Positions 17,687-29,157 are shown, counted from the stretch's first letter. The stretch is DNA of 64,000 nucleotides from an uncultured Flavobacteriales bacterium (GCA_913057205.1 CAJXNO010000003.1:1-64000), one strand, 5' to 3'. The notes: generated from the sequence alone by a model not told the origin. A program made the numbers and translations.

Positions 17687-19636
17687 TCACTCCACCACCA
17701 TAAACTCCGTTCTTCGGTTCTCCGCCCTACCTGCTTCCGTTTCATTGCTGGCGATGGGTTTGGTTTGACCATAGCCTTTATACTGCAGCCTGCTGGCGTC
17801 AACTCCGCGTTGAACGAGGTAATCATACACGGCCTTGGCTCTGTTTTCCGATAATACTTGATTGCTTTCTGCACTGCCTTGGTTGTCGGTGTGTCCGCCG
17901 ATCTCGATCTTCATCTTGGGGTATGACTTAAGCAATCGCACCAATTTGTTCAACTCTGTTTCAGATACTGGCTTGAGATCGAACTTGTCGGTATCGAAAA
18001 ACACGTTCTTCAAGACCACCGCCTTTCCGGCGGCTATCGGTTGTAAGTCGATGTTCTTGGTGTAGGTATTGCGTTCGGTTGAAAGATCGAGTACGAAGTT
18101 CTCCGAGAAGTAGAGGTAGCCGTCCTTCTCTGCGATAAGTGCATAGTTCTCACTAGACGGAAGTACCACCAAGTAACCGCCATCCTTCTCATCACTAAAG
18201 GCTTGAACTACGGTGTCTTTCGCATTCAAGCCGATCAACTTGAACGCGGCTTGAAGCGGCTTTTTGGTATCTGCATCACGGATCACTCCAGAGAGGTAGG
18301 TGACCGGGTTCGGACGAAGCGCTTCAGGTAATTCAAACTTGTACAGATCCAATTCACCGTATCCACCCTCCCGATCGCTTGCGATCAATGCATAGCTTCC
18401 ATCTGCACTTACGAAGAAACTGTTCTCATGCCCGCTTGTATTGATCGGATAACCCACATTCACCGGGTCTTCCCAGCCACCGTCGGACTTTCGTCGGCTC
18501 ATGAAAATGTCCATGCTTCCCATGCCGACGTGTCCTTCCGAAGAGAAATACAAGGTCTTGTTATCGGGGTGGATGAACACCGATTCTTCATTTTGATCTG
18601 AATTGATGTTATTGGGCATTGGCATCGCTTTTGACCACTTTCCATTGATCAATTCGGTGTAGTAGATGTCAGAAGACTTCTCTCGGTACTCATCATATAC
18701 CCCACGTATGAAATAGAGCGTCTTGCCGTCAGAGGCAAAACATGGCTGCGTTTCCCAGTGCTTGCTATTGATGGTTCTGCCCATGTTCACCGGTTTCGAC
18801 CATTCGCGTCCGCGACGAACCGAAACAAAGAGGTCGCAACTGCCATAGCCTTCTTTGTCTTGTCCATAAACGCCATACAGCTCGCAGATCGTAAAGACCA
18901 CGTATTGTCCGTCAGGGGAGATGGTTGGTGCACCTTCTCGCCACGGACTGTTGATCGGCGGACCGGGGTTGTAGGCCTTGCCCCATTCATTGTTCTCATC
19001 CTTCTCGCAGAAGAAGAACTCTTCATCAATGCCTTTTGGGGCGTAAGGGTTGTCAGGGTTGTAGATCTCACGGGTGAAAATCAGCATTTGTTCATCCGCG
19101 GTCATGGCCGGGAAGTACTCGTTCCATTTAGAGTTGACCTTTTCTCCAAGGTTGATCGGATTGTACTCCACAGGATGTTCCAAGGCCCATAGGGCAAAGT
19201 CGCAGCTTGCCGCACCGCGCTGCGCAGCTTTGTAGTTATTAGACTGCGGCGGGGCGATGCCCATGTATTGTTCGTAGTAGCCCCTGGCAGTGGTGTAGTC
19301 CTCTTTTTGCTTCGAAAGCTCAGCGAGGTTGATCAGGAGATCCGGGACGTAGCGAGGGTCTTGTTCAACGATCCGTTCCATGTAGTCGACCGATTCTTCC
19401 ATGCGTCCCATTCGCATGTACAATTCACCAAGATCGAACATTGCATCGAGGTATTGCGGATCACGTTCCAAGGCCTTGTTTAGCATGATTTCCGCCTGAT
19501 CGAATCGGTTGAAGCGTTTGTGCTGACGGGCTTCTTGGTAGAATTTTAGCGCTCGATTGTCTTCCGTGCCTCCGCGCTGTGCCATGAGGTTTGATGCGAA
19601 ACAGAGGATCAAGAAGAGGGGAAGGAGCTGTCTCAT
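17687..19636 (-). CDS. porE: PorE-like T9SS envelope protein: TPR, PD40 propeller, carboxypeptidase-regulatory-like and OmpA domains
   Basis: A 649-residue periplasmic/outer-membrane protein. Signal peptide about 1-20; TPR repeats about 25-130 (AEIMLNKALERDPQYLDAMF); WD40-like PD40 beta-propeller about 165-435 (EGAPTISPDGQYVVFT, NKTLYFSSEGHVGMGSMDIF); carboxypeptidase-regulatory-like domain about 445-530 (LSGVIRDADTKKPLQAAF); peptidoglycan-binding OmpA domain about 540-649 (IEIGGHTDNQGSAESNQVLS, RAENRRTEF). This order is that of PorE (PG1058) of the Porphyromonas T9SS. Related paralogues exist, so PorE itself is likely, not certain. It overlaps queE by 4 bases. Confidence 0.78.
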   Translation of the reverse strand: MRQLLPLFLILCFASNLMAQRGGTEDNRALKFYQEARQHKRFNRFDQAEIMLNKALERDPQYLDAMFDLGELYMRMGRMEESVDYMERIVEQDPRYVPDLLINLAELSKQKEDYTTARGYYEQYMGIAPPQSNNYKAAQRGAASCDFALWALEHPVEYNPINLGEKVNSKWNEYFPAMTADEQMLIFTREIYNPDNPYAPKGIDEEFFFCEKDENNEWGKAYNPGPPINSPWREGAPTISPDGQYVVFTICELYGVYGQDKEGYGSCDLFVSVRRGREWSKPVNMGRTINSKHWETQPCFASDGKTLYFIRGVYDEYREKSSDIYYTELINGKWSKAMPMPNNINSDQNEESVFIHPDNKTLYFSSEGHVGMGSMDIFMSRRKSDGGWEDPVNVGYPINTSGHENSFFVSADGSYALIASDREGGYGELDLYKFELPEALRPNPVTYLSGVIRDADTKKPLQAAFKLIGLNAKDTVVQAFSDEKDGGYLVVLPSSENYALIAEKDGYLYFSENFVLDLSTERNTYTKNIDLQPIAAGKAVVLKNVFFDTDKFDLKPVSETELNKLVRLLKSYPKMKIEIGGHTDNQGSAESNQVLSENRAKAVYDYLVQRGVDASRLQYKGYGQTKPIASNETEAGRAENRRTEFMVVE

Positions 19637-21906: not shown

Positions 21907-22239
21907 ATGAGCATGAAAACGTTTCTTCTTGCGGCAGGATTAGCAATATGTTGCCATTTCGGTGTTCAGGCACAGGCTACAGATGCGCCTGGTCTGCCTT
22001 ACCACGTGCCCACGATAATGGAGATCATTCAGGATGCGGTAGAACAGCCTACCGATACCAATGCGTTTGTTCAGATGCTCTTTGATCATGAAGAGTTCCC
22101 TGCAATCGAGCTGGGTTCGCCGCTTTCCGAGCAACAAAAGGAGGATATCCAAACTTGGGTAGAAACACATGTGCCGGAAATGCAGGAATTTCAGTGGCAA
22201 CGCAAGGTCAATTACGATAAATTTTACCTCAACCAGTAA
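21907..22239 (+). CDS. Small secreted protein heading the adhesin operon
   Basis: A 110-residue protein with a signal peptide (ICCHFGVQAQA, cleavage near residue 25 after AQA). The mature part is acidic and contains the segment QPTDTNAFVQMLFDHEEFP followed by TWVETHVPEM. A similar set of positions (PTQENAFIAGFMEQYDVP ... TWYWWASHHP) occurs in the small secreted protein that closes the operon at 29.1 kb. It is followed after 11 bases by the first giant adhesin. Function unknown. A start at the ATG at 21913 is equally possible. Confidence 0.72.
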   Translation: MSMKTFLLAAGLAICCHFGVQAQATDAPGLPYHVPTIMEIIQDAVEQPTDTNAFVQMLFDHEEFPAIELGSPLSEQQKEDIQTWVETHVPEMQEFQWQRKVNYDKFYLNQ

Positions 22240-22250
22240 AGGAAGATTAT

Positions 22251-25200
22251 ATGAAGGCGGTTTTTACTAAAGCTACCATCGCGCTCGGTTTTATGGTATT
22301 CGCGATGTTTGGATGGACTCCAAACGCGAGTGCTCAAACACCGATCACCATTGGGCCTCAGTCGAATACGTTCACCAGCATGGTGCGAGGATACTATTTT
22401 ACCTCCCCGGTGAACTTTACGATTTGTGGACTATACATTCCAACGGATGCCTCCACGGGTGATCAGAACGTTGAGATCGTTCGTTTTACCAGTGCAGCGC
22501 CACCCGCATGGCCAGCCACCACCAATGCATTTACTTCATTGTTCTATCAGAATAACTATGCGGTCAATGCGATGATTCCATGTAACGTTTCTGTGAGCAA
22601 CGGAGACATCATGGGTATCTATGGTGCACGGGGTGCTAACATGGTCAACAGCTATGATGGCGTAAATTATGTAACGCAGATATCAGGTCAGAACGCGACG
22701 CTTTCACGTTCAGGAATGCAGGCGAATTTGAGTACAGGTCAAATGGCCAATATTTGGGCAGAGACGTGGTACAACATCGGTCGTATCATCATGTATTACA
22801 ATTGTTGTCCAGCGCCACCTGCTCCATCCGGACCGTTTACTGGTCCGATGACTGTTTGTCAAGGGGATACCGTAACCTACTCTATTCCGTGGGACCCACT
22901 CGCGGTAGAGTATGAGTGGACTGTTCCTGCTGGTGATTCTATTCTTTCTGGACAAGGTGATTCCTTAATTACTGTGGCGATTGGACCTAACTCTACAGGA
23001 GGTCAGATATGCGTTGCAATGGAGGATACGTGTACTACTGGACCGGATACGTGCTTTACCTACATGATCGATATGCCGGCTACACCTGTTTCGATTTCAG
23101 GTCCTACAACGCTTTGTCAGAATAACTCAGCTAACTATACTACGATTCCTGTTTCAGGGGCGAGTTCATATAATTGGACGGTTGATAATGGAGCAACCAT
23201 CACATCAGGTCAGGGCGGAACGAACGTGAATATCAGTTTCCCCAATGTTGGTACAACGAATGTTTGTGTTTCTGCCGTTGATGCTTGTGCAGAAGGTGAT
23301 AGCATATGTTTTACAGTCGATGTGAGTCCAGGGCCAAGTCCTGCTGTTGGAGGTCCAGACCGAATCGTATGTCAAGGATTACAGGTAGGTCTCTTAGCTA
23401 CGAACCCGACAACGGGAACGGGGCATTGGCAAATTGCGAACGCACCATTAGGTAATGGTGGTACGTTCTCGGATACCCTTGATAACTTGTCTACCTATAC
23501 TACCCTTCAACAAGGTGTTCACACGTTAGAATGGGTAGTGTCTACACCAGGATGTCCGCCCAATGTAGATGAAGTCGAAGTAGAAGTACTCGTTGAACCA
23601 ACCGCTGACTTCAGCTTTGAGCCAGGTTGCGAAGGCGCTCCAATTGACTTCCAAGATGAGTCGGACGGTAATGGAACAACCATCGGGTCCTACTACTGGG
23701 ACATGAATAGTGACGGCATTTTTGATCATTACGGAACCAGCTTCCAACACAACTTTGTTGGGTCAGGAACCTTTATGGTTCAGTTGATTACTACGAACCT
23801 TGGTTGTGCCGATACTATTGTTAAACCTGTGCAAGTGTGGCCAAAACCTTATGTTGGATTTGATATGGATGATGACTGCCAAGGTGCAGCCATAGCATTC
23901 AACAACACTACCTCGCTCGCAGGAGGTACGTTGGATTCATTGACTTGGAACTTCGGTGATGGTACGGGACCACAGATAACCACCGCACCGAATCTGAACA
24001 TGTATCCAAACTACCTCTATGATGATCCAGGAGATTATAACGTGAGTTTGCGCGCAGTATCTGACCAAGGTTGTGTTGGTACTTACTCGGATTCCGTGCG
24101 AATCTTCGATAATCCAGAGGCGAGCTTCTCTGTTGATAATGCTTGTCAATTCCAAACCACATCATTCAATGACTTGAGTACGGTGAATGATGCGAATATC
24201 GCTGTTTGGGCATGGGACCTTGACGCTACAACATCTAACCAACAGAACCCAACCTATGACTACAACGTAGGAGGAATGGTGCCGGTAACCCTGTGGGTAG
24301 AGAGTAGCCAAGGATGTCAAGATGATACCACAATGCAAATCGAGGTCTTCCCTTCTCCAACGGCAGATTTCAACTTCACCAATCGGGTGTGTGAAGGAGA
24401 GGTAACCACCTTGGAACAGGTTGCAACCATTGCCTACGGCGGCTTTGATAGCTTTGATTGGTTGGTGATTGATGACTCCGTGACCGCTTCAGGACCGCAG
24501 TTCCAATATGCCTTTGATTCGTATGGAACGGCAAAGGTGCGGTTGACGGTAACGTCAGATGAAGGCTGCGTTGATGACATTACGAAGGATGTACCTGTTT
24601 ATGAGACGCCCATCGCAGATTTTAAGTTCAACAATGCTTGTGAAGACGTTGCGATCAATTTCCGCGACAGTTCAGATTTCAGTGGTGCTATCGATCGCTT
24701 CACGTGGAAGTTTGATGATGGAACGTCATGGGTTTCTGAACAGTACCCTACACATACATTTGACACCTTCGGAACCTATGATGTTACATTGATCGTGGAG
24801 TCGCATAAAGGATGCTTGGATTCGATCACGTATCCAATTGACATTTATGAGCGTGTTAATCCTCGTTTTGTTGCGGTTGAAGATTCGGGTTGTTCGCCAT
24901 TCATGGCTGAGCTGGTAGATAATACCCTCAATCAAACCGGTACGGAGCTGACCTATACTTGGACCTTCATGGATGGTGTTTCAAGGGTAGATACCTCTTA
25001 CTTTACTTATGTGAATGAAAGCGGCAAGGCTAAGTCCTACGATGTGCGCTTAGACATTCTTTCTGATAGAGGATGTTTCAGTACATATACGATTGAAGAC
25101 TACTTGACTGTATTACCACAGCCTTTGGCATACTTCGAAACAGATCAAGATCTCAATACGATCTTGACAACCAACCCAGTGGTACAATTCATGAATAAGT

Positions 25201-25658
25201 CGCAGCAGGAGAATCGCGTTCGCTGGTATTTCGGAGATGGTACGACTTCAACGCTTCAGAATCCAAGTCATCAGTATGACTATGAAGGACAGTATGAAAT
25301 CACGCTGGAGGCCAAGAATTATTTGAATTGTGTTGATTCCTTCCAAATGACGGCAAATGTGGTTCATGAAAACCGTCCATTCATTCCATCCGGCTTTACA
25401 CCAAATGGTGACGGCCTCAATGACTTCTTCTATGTTGAGGGGCTTCAGGAAGTGACGAATGTGACGATGGATGTATTCGACCGTTGGGGAAACCAAATCT
25501 TCCATGCGGTTGGGAAGGACGCCCGTTGGGATGGTAAGGACATGCAGTCCCGAATCGTTCAACAAGGTGTTTATGCCTACAGGGTGGTCTACGAAGATGC
25601 CAACGGCAAGGAATACGAATACCAAGGAAACGTAACCGTTTTAGGAGTTAACCGATAA
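22251..25658 (+). CDS. Giant secreted PKD-repeat adhesin with T9SS type B (gliding-associated) sorting domain
   Basis: A 1135-residue protein. Signal peptide about 1-28 (NASAQ); an N-terminal domain of about 160 residues; Ig/PKD-like region from about 200; then seven PKD or PKD-like repeats between about 450 and 1040 (LTWNFGDGTGP, FTWKFDDGTSW, VRWYFGDGTTS). The C-terminal 95 residues (PFIPSGFTPNGDGLNDFFY ... FDRWGNQIF ... WDGKD) are the CHU_C/type B sorting domain. The protein is exported by T9SS and held at the surface, often by a PorP/SprF-type partner, none of which lies nearby. It is followed after 5 bases by a second adhesin of similar design. Confidence 0.9.
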   Translation: MKAVFTKATIALGFMVFAMFGWTPNASAQTPITIGPQSNTFTSMVRGYYFTSPVNFTICGLYIPTDASTGDQNVEIVRFTSAAPPAWPATTNAFTSLFYQNNYAVNAMIPCNVSVSNGDIMGIYGARGANMVNSYDGVNYVTQISGQNATLSRSGMQANLSTGQMANIWAETWYNIGRIIMYYNCCPAPPAPSGPFTGPMTVCQGDTVTYSIPWDPLAVEYEWTVPAGDSILSGQGDSLITVAIGPNSTGGQICVAMEDTCTTGPDTCFTYMIDMPATPVSISGPTTLCQNNSANYTTIPVSGASSYNWTVDNGATITSGQGGTNVNISFPNVGTTNVCVSAVDACAEGDSICFTVDVSPGPSPAVGGPDRIVCQGLQVGLLATNPTTGTGHWQIANAPLGNGGTFSDTLDNLSTYTTLQQGVHTLEWVVSTPGCPPNVDEVEVEVLVEPTADFSFEPGCEGAPIDFQDESDGNGTTIGSYYWDMNSDGIFDHYGTSFQHNFVGSGTFMVQLITTNLGCADTIVKPVQVWPKPYVGFDMDDDCQGAAIAFNNTTSLAGGTLDSLTWNFGDGTGPQITTAPNLNMYPNYLYDDPGDYNVSLRAVSDQGCVGTYSDSVRIFDNPEASFSVDNACQFQTTSFNDLSTVNDANIAVWAWDLDATTSNQQNPTYDYNVGGMVPVTLWVESSQGCQDDTTMQIEVFPSPTADFNFTNRVCEGEVTTLEQVATIAYGGFDSFDWLVIDDSVTASGPQFQYAFDSYGTAKVRLTVTSDEGCVDDITKDVPVYETPIADFKFNNACEDVAINFRDSSDFSGAIDRFTWKFDDGTSWVSEQYPTHTFDTFGTYDVTLIVESHKGCLDSITYPIDIYERVNPRFVAVEDSGCSPFMAELVDNTLNQTGTELTYTWTFMDGVSRVDTSYFTYVNESGKAKSYDVRLDILSDRGCFSTYTIEDYLTVLPQPLAYFETDQDLNTILTTNPVVQFMNKSQQENRVRWYFGDGTTSTLQNPSHQYDYEGQYEITLEAKNYLNCVDSFQMTANVVHENRPFIPSGFTPNGDGLNDFFYVEGLQEVTNVTMDVFDRWGNQIFHAVGKDARWDGKDMQSRIVQQGVYAYRVVYEDANGKEYEYQGNVTVLGVNR

Positions 25659-25663
25659 GATCC

Positions 25664-28600
25664 ATGATAGCAGCGACAAAACTTCGATTCGTGGCGTTGA
25701 TTGCAGCGCTCCTTTCCATCGGAAGCTACGATGTAATGGGGCAGTGTAATAACCCTAGCGGTACGCCTTACGCTACCAATAATGGCCAAGATGGTATCAT
25801 GTTTACCATTACGGCCAAAGAAAACATCGTGATTGATTCGTTTGCGAATAATCATGGACCAGGCACCATTCCAGAATATAGGATCTACTATAAGTGTGGT
25901 GATGCCACATCAGCAACTACGAATGCAGCAGCATGGACTTTGATCGGTTCTGCGTTTAATGTGGTTTCTGCAGGAACCAACCTTCCTACCATAATTCCCA
26001 TCAACGTTAATATTCCGATGTCGGAGTATCAAACGGTTGCATTTTATCTCACTACTGCTGGAAGTGGTCCGATTTGTCGATATACCAATGGAACGCAGGT
26101 GTGTGATTCGTTAGGAGGTAACCCAGAGTTGGTGATTCATGAAGGCTATGGTAAGGATTATCCTTTTGGAGCTACTTTTAATCCCCGTGAATTCAACGGA
26201 ACCGTATACTATCACTGTACAGGAAGCTCTCAGCTGAGCATCAACGGAAATTTTACATTTTGCAACGTTACGGTAGGACAACAAGAAACCTATACCCTGA
26301 CCAACGGTAATAATCCAACCGCTTGTGCCAACAACGCTGGTATCGCTTGGGTTGTGCCACCTGGTATGAGCATAGTGAGTGGTGGTAATAGCGATACGGT
26401 TACCGTGCAGTTCAATAGCTCGAACGTCACAGGAGATATCTGTGCAGCAATGCTGGGTTGTGATGGTACCGATACGGTTGGTTATGTATGCGAGCCTTTG
26501 TTGAGTCAGCCTGCAGCGGCCAATGCTGGTCCAGATACCACGATTTGTAGCTCTTCATATCAACTTCAAGGAAACCAAGGAAGTGGTTTTTGGGAAGTAG
26601 TAAGCGGCTCTGGAGTTTTGACGGATCCCTATGAATACAACACCGTTGTGTCTGGATTGAGTGTAGGTGCGAATGTTTTCCGCTGGAATTTGGGCGGAGG
26701 CGGCTGCCCATTCAGCTCAGACGAGGTAACCATAACGGTGAATCCAATCCCAATTGCCCAGTTTAACCCTTACAATGTTTGTGACGGTGAGGCGGTGAAC
26801 CTTCAAGATAGTTCTTATGCTTTAAGTGGAAACATCATTGGTTGGAGTTGGGATGTGGACGACGACGGGACCAACGATTACACTACAAGTAATTTCAACC
26901 ATGTCTATCCTGGGCCTGGAACGTATCAATGTCGACTGGCAGTTACGGCGAATCAAGGGTGTACGGATACGGTGATTCATGTTATCGAAGTGCATCCTAA
27001 TCCAGAAGCTGAATTCACCTATTCTCCTGATTGCGAAGGGGTGCCTGTTGCCTTTAATGACACAAGTGAAATCCTAAGTGGAATGATAACCGATTGGGAA
27101 TGGGACTTTGGTGACGGTACTGCTCCGAGTTTTGCGCAGGACCCCGGTCATGTCTATCAGTCAGATGGATTGTACTTGGTGTCGCTTACGGTAACAAGCG
27201 CCCTCGGCTGTTCTGATACCTATACGGATACCGTAGAAGTCTACAGTATTCCGAATGTTGATTTCGGTTCCGAAGAGGTGTGTCAGCATGATACGGTATT
27301 CTTCCGCGACAGCTCAACTTCTGTTCAGGGAGTGATCAATTACTGGGACTGGGATTTTGGCGATGGAGCACCTACCGTGCAGCAACAGGATACTGCGCAC
27401 TTTTATGTGAATCACGGTACCTACTTTGTTCGTTTGACGGTTGCTACAGATCGAGGTTGTACCAACACCGTGGTGAAGCCTCACCGATCATTCCCGGTAC
27501 CTGTACCTAATTATTCTCAGGAAGGTGTCTGCGAAGAGCAAGAAGTCTTCTTCAATGATGAATCTACCGTAGACCCTATGTTTGGGTCTACCTTGGTTGG
27601 CTACGATTGGGCCTTTGGAGATGGTGATTCTGCCTCCAATGAGCGAGTCGGACACTACTACCAAGATCCTGGTGAGTACATTCTCGGTCATACACCGATC
27701 ACCAACTATGGTTGTACCACCACCTATGAATACGATATTCTGATTCGTCCACGTCCTCGTCCAAATGCCATCGTTTTGGATGATAAGGTGTGTGCGGGTA
27801 ATGTGATTCGCTATACCGATCAAACCTTCTTCGATCCAACCTATGACTCTACTGGGGTCGTGAGTTGGCAGTGGTATTTCGGTGACGGAAAGTCTTCCGT
27901 AGAGAAAAACCCTAAGAATATCTTCGCAGAAGGTGGCGACTACCGTACCGTGTTGATCGTGGAAACGGGATACGGCTGTATTGACTCTTCTGTGATCACA
28001 ACGCAGGTCTACCACAACCCAGTGGCTGACTTTAGACCGGATACGTTGGAAGGTTGTTCTCCGCATTGCGTAACCTTCATAAATAACTCAACCATCGCTA
28101 CCGGCGAAGACCTGGCCTATGCGTGGTCGTTTGGAGATGGAGCAGGTAACGTTTTGGATGTCAACCCAACCCACTGCTATGAGGTAGAAGATGGAACAGG
28201 AATCTCTAATTTCCCTGTAGACCTTGAAGTGACTTCGGCAAAAGGTTGTTCAGACTCATTGCGAATGGAGAACAGGGTGCGCATTCATGCGCGTCCGATC
28301 GCAGATTTTGACTTGAGTGCGGGGGCGATCAGTTTGTTGGATTCAGTTGTGTTCATCGATGACTACTCTGTTGGAGCGGATTATTGGATGTGGGACTTCG
28401 GCGACTCAACTACTTCCATCTCTAGCTCTCCGATCAAGCACGTTTATCAAGAGCCAGGCTTGTATGAGATCAAGCTGATCGTGGAAGATAACTTCGGTTG
28501 CGATGATTCTACCATGCGCAAACTCCTCGTGGAACGTCACCAAACCCTGTTTGTTCCATCAGGTTTTACACCAAATGGCGATGGTCTGAATGATGTGTTT

Positions 28601-28822
28601 GAGATCAAAGGCGAGGACTTCGAATTCCTTCGTTTATGGGTATTCAACCGTTGGGGTGATCAAATCTTCTATGGCGAGAATGACAACGCTAAGTGGGATG
28701 GAAAGGTGAATGGTCGTGTGCTTGGTTTGGGTAGCTACCCGTACATCATCGAGTACAAGCCCACCGGACAAATCACTCAGAAACTAAATGGAAACATCAT
28801 CATCTCTAAATCTCAGAACTGA
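25664..28822 (+). CDS. Second giant secreted PKD-repeat adhesin with T9SS type B sorting domain
   Basis: A 1052-residue protein. Signal peptide about 1-26 (SYDVMGQ); an N-terminal domain of about 190 residues; an Ig-like segment with the phrase NAGPDTTICSSSYQLQG; seven PKD repeats from about 360 to 960 (WEWDFGDGTAP, WDWDFGDGAPT, YDWAFGDGDSA, WQWYFGDGKSS, WMWDFGDSTTS). The type B sorting domain at the end reads LFVPSGFTPNGDGLNDVFE ... FNRWGDQIF. It shares domain order with the preceding adhesin, so the two probably arose by duplication and diverged. Its TGA overlaps the ATG of the following small gene by one base. Confidence 0.9.
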   Translation: MIAATKLRFVALIAALLSIGSYDVMGQCNNPSGTPYATNNGQDGIMFTITAKENIVIDSFANNHGPGTIPEYRIYYKCGDATSATTNAAAWTLIGSAFNVVSAGTNLPTIIPINVNIPMSEYQTVAFYLTTAGSGPICRYTNGTQVCDSLGGNPELVIHEGYGKDYPFGATFNPREFNGTVYYHCTGSSQLSINGNFTFCNVTVGQQETYTLTNGNNPTACANNAGIAWVVPPGMSIVSGGNSDTVTVQFNSSNVTGDICAAMLGCDGTDTVGYVCEPLLSQPAAANAGPDTTICSSSYQLQGNQGSGFWEVVSGSGVLTDPYEYNTVVSGLSVGANVFRWNLGGGGCPFSSDEVTITVNPIPIAQFNPYNVCDGEAVNLQDSSYALSGNIIGWSWDVDDDGTNDYTTSNFNHVYPGPGTYQCRLAVTANQGCTDTVIHVIEVHPNPEAEFTYSPDCEGVPVAFNDTSEILSGMITDWEWDFGDGTAPSFAQDPGHVYQSDGLYLVSLTVTSALGCSDTYTDTVEVYSIPNVDFGSEEVCQHDTVFFRDSSTSVQGVINYWDWDFGDGAPTVQQQDTAHFYVNHGTYFVRLTVATDRGCTNTVVKPHRSFPVPVPNYSQEGVCEEQEVFFNDESTVDPMFGSTLVGYDWAFGDGDSASNERVGHYYQDPGEYILGHTPITNYGCTTTYEYDILIRPRPRPNAIVLDDKVCAGNVIRYTDQTFFDPTYDSTGVVSWQWYFGDGKSSVEKNPKNIFAEGGDYRTVLIVETGYGCIDSSVITTQVYHNPVADFRPDTLEGCSPHCVTFINNSTIATGEDLAYAWSFGDGAGNVLDVNPTHCYEVEDGTGISNFPVDLEVTSAKGCSDSLRMENRVRIHARPIADFDLSAGAISLLDSVVFIDDYSVGADYWMWDFGDSTTSISSSPIKHVYQEPGLYEIKLIVEDNFGCDDSTMRKLLVERHQTLFVPSGFTPNGDGLNDVFEIKGEDFEFLRLWVFNRWGDQIFYGENDNAKWDGKVNGRVLGLGSYPYIIEYKPTGQITQKLNGNIIISKSQN

Positions 28823-29157
28823 TGGCTAAACTGAAGCATATCTCACAAATCCTGTTTGTTACGTTGTTGCTCAGCGCGGCTGCATTGGGAGTTCAGGCGC
28901 AGTCAAACCAGCCACCTGCAGCCGACTTAGACCTCGGTTTAGGCTATGAGCCACAAGAGATCGTTGATGAATGGGATGAGTGGTACACCAATCCTACGCA
29001 GGAGAACGCGTTCATCGCAGGCTTTATGGAGCAATACGATGTGCCTCAAACGGGGTTACATGGACTCACTCGCCTCGAAACATGGTACTGGTGGGCATCA
29101 CACCATCCATATCAGGTGTTTGCATACATCAACCTGCGCGACCAGCAAAACAACTGA
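28822..29157 (+). CDS. Small secreted protein closing the adhesin operon
   Basis: A 111-residue protein with a signal peptide (LLLSAAALGVQAQS, cleavage near residue 27). The mature part is rich in Trp, Tyr and acidic residues (EIVDEWDEWYTNPTQENAF, ETWYWWASHHPYQVF). The blocks NPTQENAFIAGFMEQYDVP and TWxxxxxHxP resemble those in the first gene of the operon. Translation is coupled to the second adhesin by a one-base stop/start overlap. Perhaps a chaperone or attachment partner for the adhesins, but this is inference only. Confidence 0.72.
   Translation: MAKLKHISQILFVTLLLSAAALGVQAQSNQPPAADLDLGLGYEPQEIVDEWDEWYTNPTQENAFIAGFMEQYDVPQTGLHGLTRLETWYWWASHHPYQVFAYINLRDQQNN

Follow-up and report, generated by a model that had tools for sequence, protein, structure and literature searches.

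To our knowledge, it is little understood by what means T9SS adhesins, about a thousand residues long, remain export competent and nonsticky in the periplasm. A locus in which two such adhesin genes are bracketed by two genes for small secreted proteins, found in a 64,000-nucleotide stretch of DNA from an uncultured Flavobacteriales bacterium (GCA_913057205.1, CAJXNO010000003.1:1-64000; the whole stretch is called the window here), raises the question of whether the small proteins are partners of the adhesins and, if so, of which part of them. The genes and domains concerned are as follows, in window coordinates.

21907..22239, + strand: gene A, an open reading frame for a 110-residue secreted protein from the undescribed family of small proteins that pairs with NTD-alpha, the mature part predicted as four helices
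22251..25658, + strand: adhesin 1, 1135 residues, with NTD-alpha, a PKD-like array and a type B T9SS sorting domain (Pfam content: seven PKD_4, two PKD_6 and CHU_C)
22335..22808, + strand: NTD-alpha, residues 29-186 of adhesin 1, a predicted beta-sandwich, the domain that A tracks
25383..25637, + strand: CHU_C type B sorting domain, residues 1045-1129 of adhesin 1 (Pfam, TIGR04131)
25664..28822, + strand: adhesin 2, 1052 residues, with NTD-beta, a PKD array and a type B T9SS sorting domain (Pfam content: seven PKD_4 and CHU_C)
25742..26218, + strand: NTD-beta, residues 27-185 of adhesin 2, a common domain
28553..28780, + strand: CHU_C type B sorting domain, residues 964-1039 of adhesin 2 (Pfam, TIGR04131)
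28822..29157, + strand: gene B, an open reading frame with orthologues for a 111-residue secreted protein, paralogue of A

The order A-adhesin 1-adhesin 2-B, the sizes of the small proteins (110 and 111 residues) and the intergenic gaps of 11, 5 and -1 bp agree with a preliminary description of this DNA, and the spacing suggests that the four genes form one operon; a scan for promoters and terminators gave nothing better than shuffled sequences. A DUF4301 gene lies on one side and a convergent phosphoglucomutase gene on the other. Both adhesins are type B T9SS substrates with PKD arrays, as had been proposed, scoring 51.4 (adhesin 1) and 50.8 bits (adhesin 2) with TIGR04131, for which the curated cutoff is 35, and 70.1 and 62.7 bits with Pfam CHU_C. 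A and B start with signal-peptide-like segments ending in VQAQ (read by eye), and neither has a type A or type B T9SS sorting domain recognizable by Pfam or NCBIfam models. About 2.3 kb upstream of A, a 649-residue protein encoded on the minus strand (window positions 17687-19636) has the domain architecture of the T9SS component PorE (TPR, PD40 propeller and OmpA domains), and the position of this gene is kept in other genomes of the genus.

The preliminary description knew of no family for the small proteins, and we found none either: A and B matched nothing in Pfam or NCBIfam, and no relatives of the small proteins or of NTD-alpha were found by sequence in Pfam, NCBIfam or the PDB. Judged from its sequence, A is a member of an undescribed family of predicted helical proteins of about 90 residues. 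The suggestion that A and B are paralogues was borne out. The direct BLASTP match is weak (E value of 3e-5) and includes the signal peptides, but when orthologues from the same genus were added to each (9 A rows against 11 B rows), hhalign gave a probability of 97.8% (E value of 1e-12), and the mature regions on their own gave 95.3% with a score of 46.6, compared to 17.3 for the best of 60 column shuffles. A protein from another genus (G015, locus L051, 11300-11620) matches both A and B, with E values of 1.3e-10 and 6.7e-12, respectively. At the sequence level, A and B are thus remote paralogues. They are not equivalent. In the tree, B forms a single clade (support of 100/99) with the G015 protein as its sister, while A clusters with more distant homologues; B lacks the C-terminal R/K...F/Y tail that is kept in the partners of NTD-alpha, and a class-wide profile search over 395 genomes detected B in one genus only. 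The G015 protein has retained the A-type tail; with the alpha-partner profile it reaches 41 bits, compared to 2 to 20 bits for B proteins. A belongs to a widespread lineage paired with NTD-alpha, and B is a genus-restricted derivative.

The arrangement of QueE, DUF4301, the cassette and phosphoglucomutase is conserved in the genus, although the gene order inside the cassette differs: most genomes have A-adhesin 1-adhesin 2-B, while two (G006 and G011) have adhesin 1-A-adhesin 2-B. After the signal peptide, each adhesin carries a head of about 160 residues that belongs to one of two mutually exclusive types, alpha and beta, which are unrelated by profile comparison; in the window, the alpha head is on adhesin 1 and the beta head on adhesin 2. 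In G006 and G011 (loci L049 and L046), the heads of the two adhesins have been reciprocally exchanged, with the junction where the first PKD-like domain begins, and despite the exchange A lies directly before the gene that carries NTD-alpha. In G001, both heads are of the beta type and share 75% identity, the genome has no A, and only 111 bp separate adhesin 1 from DUF4301. G015 has the order adhesin 1-adhesin 2 followed by one small gene; both of its heads are alpha, and the small gene, at the far end of the array, is contiguous with neither. These arrangements indicate that A follows NTD-alpha rather than the adhesin body or the gene position, and G001 together with G006 and G011 rules out that A is tied to the body of adhesin 1 or to its place in the array. 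Two further genomes of the genus (G003 and G010, 82 to 86% complete) show neither small gene nor a close adhesin 1. The adhesin 1 gene of G009 (L041, 4237-7673), a metagenome-derived genome, is broken into two frames where a stop or frameshift interrupts it, possibly through an assembly error.

The pairing extends well beyond this genus. Profile searches with the small proteins and with NTD-alpha, run independently over 395 genomes of the class, converged on the same loci. Each of the 11 genomes that encode an A-type protein is among the 18 that have NTD-alpha at an E value of ≤1e-50; by simple arithmetic, the chance of such an overlap in random draws is about 4e-17, a figure that is only indicative given the relatedness of the genomes. 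The small gene lay directly upstream of the NTD-alpha gene in 30/30 pairs from three families of the class, always first, at a gap of -20 to +21 bp, with several different genes further upstream. The small proteins of these pairs diverge to about 20% sequence identity and stand in different genomic neighborhoods. In family f43, 19 of 19 strong small-protein matches (17 genomes, three genera) were directly upstream of an NTD-alpha gene, and neither in the 395 class genomes nor in the f43 loci was a strong A-type match found away from NTD-alpha. The commonest relatives consist of a lone small gene upstream of a lone adhesin. G019, in an unrelated genomic place, has an A-like gene that abuts a single NTD-alpha adhesin (0 bp) with no B and no NTD-beta. 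The paired adhesins that could be read to the end carry type B CTDs, while most others run off the fetched loci.

Sequence distances point to the same domain. In the seven genomes whose cassette is complete, the distances of A correlated with those of NTD-alpha (r = 0.81, P = 0.0016 after regression on four neighboring genes) but not with those of either adhesin body, of B or of NTD-beta. B correlated modestly with the body of adhesin 2 (0.55, P = 0.045) but not with NTD-beta (0.17) in the same seven genomes. Over all 30 pairs, A-type and NTD-alpha distances correlated with an r of 0.71, a value that includes species relatedness. Since A and NTD-alpha are contiguous, shared recombination could add to the correlation, and it might even be that no physical partnership exists and that A and the 5' end of the adhesin gene have simply spread as one recombining block of DNA; the similarity of these sequences to G006 and G011 is indeed raised over A and NTD-alpha and drops past the head domain. 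However, the linkage holds in three families, in different neighborhoods and between small proteins as little as about 20% identical; the small gene of G015 sits at the far end of its array without touching either head, and G001 lost A exactly where the head changed. We therefore regard a mere recombining block as improbable. As the same pairing turns up again in distant bacteria and is preserved through natural exchanges of domains, the small protein is probably a dedicated partner of NTD-alpha.

The dependence does not run both ways. NTD-alpha was found with no adjacent small gene in six f21 genomes, in G165, in locus L128 and in the second copy of G329, and within f21 and G165 no match to the small protein appeared anywhere in the genomes at an E value of 0.05. 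The unpartnered proteins are type B in f21 and L128 and type A in G165 and one G329 copy, and NTD-alpha is carried by many proteins that have no A-like gene close by, short type A proteins among them. The presence of the domain without the small gene in several genomes indicates that the partner is not obligatory for it. This weighs against NTD-alpha being a toxic domain with A as its periplasmic immunity protein, an idea suggested by a small periplasmic-type protein encoded next to a single variable domain within a giant secreted protein. Bacteroidetes polymorphic toxin-immunity modules (PMC7073777) likewise have a small gene next to a giant secreted protein and tracking one of its domains, but no toxin domain was detected here. 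Moreover, the NTD-alpha model is weakly similar to jelly-roll binding domains and not to an enzyme, and the genus has just two head types, both conserved rather than polymorphic, so that an immunity function seems very unlikely. In f21 (L145 to L148), where a small partner was not detected at the loci, the NTD-alpha type B genes follow immediately on one or two genes for giant adhesins and lie beside other conserved genes. Outside Bacteroidota, a scan of genome contigs with the NTD-alpha alignment found NTD-alpha-like domains, also with no small partner, in records labeled Phycisphaeraceae, Nitrospiraceae and Corallococcus (L139, L141, L143 and L144).

The preliminary description had tied the small proteins to type B adhesins as such. 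Every strong homologue checked does adjoin an adhesin gene, but the tie is to NTD-alpha and not to type B proteins in general: no family member was present in the regions read around the 26 other TIGR04131 matches of the same genome, which rules out a general partnership with type B adhesins. A strict bond between B and NTD-beta is doubtful, as NTD-beta is common (105/395 class genomes), B was found in one genus only, and the coevolution analysis favored the body of adhesin 2; the link of B to NTD-beta is weaker than that of A to NTD-alpha.

Structure prediction (AF2) gave four helices for mature A (pLDDT of 84.6) and an all-beta sandwich for NTD-alpha (best of five models with pLDDT of 82.4 and pTM of 0.84; the others with pLDDT of 71 to 74). 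The fold of A resembled nothing in the PDB or in viral libraries. That of NTD-alpha had a weak jelly-roll likeness in the PDB (best E value of 0.002), to PHR domains, phage baseplate proteins and carbohydrate-binding modules, from which we would guess that the modeled head binds a ligand.

These features also bear on whether A and B might be T9SS accessory parts, a plug or a shuttle, for the C-terminal signal of the adhesins. Type B substrates need cognate SprF/PorP-like shuttles (PMC12618676), and no SprF-like gene was found in the array by open reading frame and Pfam analysis. Nevertheless, A tracks the N-terminal domain and not the CTD-bearing body, it is short, helical in the model and without a match to known T9SS parts (SprF/PorP-like models of Pfam and NCBIfam failed to match A, B or 12 family members), and the type B genes elsewhere in the genome manage without it. 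An accessory role is hardly credible, and nothing supports the plug put forward in the preliminary description.

What a partner of the head might do can be considered from the route of export. T9SS substrates pass the inner membrane through Sec by means of an N-terminal signal peptide, while the T9SS signal is C-terminal (PMC9143113). From these positions, we infer that the head of a protein of 870 to 1350 residues would be exposed in the periplasm: the adhesin would enter N terminus first, so that NTD-alpha lies exposed for as long as several hundred further residues and the C-terminal T9SS signal have yet to follow. A would be produced shortly ahead of its adhesin, would be exported through Sec and, as it has no T9SS signal of its own, would stay in the periplasm as a small helical bundle. 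There it may bind NTD-alpha, preventing it from misfolding or from sticking to envelope ligands or to other copies, and release it at T9SS export. We give an even chance to A being such a dedicated, domain-specific partner of NTD-alpha, acting as a periplasmic chaperone or cap. Adjacency to an adhesin and specificity for one of its domains, by which a dedicated adhesin chaperone may be recognized, are seen in the 30/30 pairs, the swaps and the coevolution. The linkage, swap and coevolution data would fit equally well if A were a structural subunit that binds NTD-alpha, rides with it through the T9SS pore and forms a two-protein adhesive tip at the surface; lacking an export signal, A would need just such a carrier. 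NTD-alpha also occurs without a partner, though, so that A would be dispensable for some forms of the tip, and this coexport is, in our judgment, rather unlikely. The gene order and the absence of an export signal in A lead us to prefer the periplasmic chaperone or cap. In either case, the natural swaps predict which pairs of small protein and head should and should not bind, and the conserved two-gene module of small protein and NTD-alpha offers a direct handle on the export competence of adhesins. If the proposed role is true, two unannotated protein families would gain a testable function.

Fimbrial chaperones of chaperone-usher systems are small, periplasmic and subunit specific, are encoded beside the adhesive subunit and consist of two Ig-like beta domains. 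With a predicted all-helical protein of about 90 residues in the case of A, the likeness to them is one of analogy only. Within the T9SS, the pairs of type B CTD and SprF (PorP-like) likewise join one part of a substrate to a cognate, often gene-adjacent envelope partner (PMC12618676, PMC9143113). However, SprF/PorP-like proteins are outer membrane beta-barrels that act on the C-terminal signal, whereas the A family is short, modeled as four helices, tracks an N-terminal domain and has no sequence relation to them. SkpA, a Skp homologue in the extended translocon (PMC10994853), resembles the role proposed for A in being a helical protein of the periplasm with a link to T9SS export, but it is a general part of the translocon and forms a jellyfish trimer, while each A-family gene goes with an individual adhesin and no Pfam model matches the family; neither the Skp family model nor a solved Skp structure matched A by sequence or fold in Pfam or the PDB. 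The partners described in these papers work on the C-terminal signal or within the translocon (PMC12618676, PMC10994853), and our search of the open-access literature found these CTD-SprF pairs and the Skp-type translocon chaperone but no partner of an N-terminal domain of T9SS adhesins. Cognate partners of secreted adhesins are already known; what would be new is a T9SS N-terminal-domain partner from a family with no described relative.

B, derived from the same family, would in this genus probably serve adhesin 2, whose head is now NTD-beta. A broader reading, possible but on the doubtful side, is that cognate pairing in T9SS adhesins has a second layer, at the N terminus, in which small helical proteins guard or complete the heads, with A for alpha, B for beta and possibly a protein of G239 for a third head, and in which heads and partners are exchanged together as cassettes. 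The G239 protein (L216, 6981-7316) is a 111-residue secreted open reading frame immediately upstream of the gene for a type B adhesin whose N terminus is unrelated; its match to the family profile is very weak (13.2 bits, compared to 8.5 for the best of 200 shuffles), too weak to claim membership. This adhesin gene is followed by SprF-like and OmpA-like genes. Finally, two genomes contain two separate pairs of small gene and NTD-alpha each, G444 at L240 and L254 and G488 at L247 and L255.
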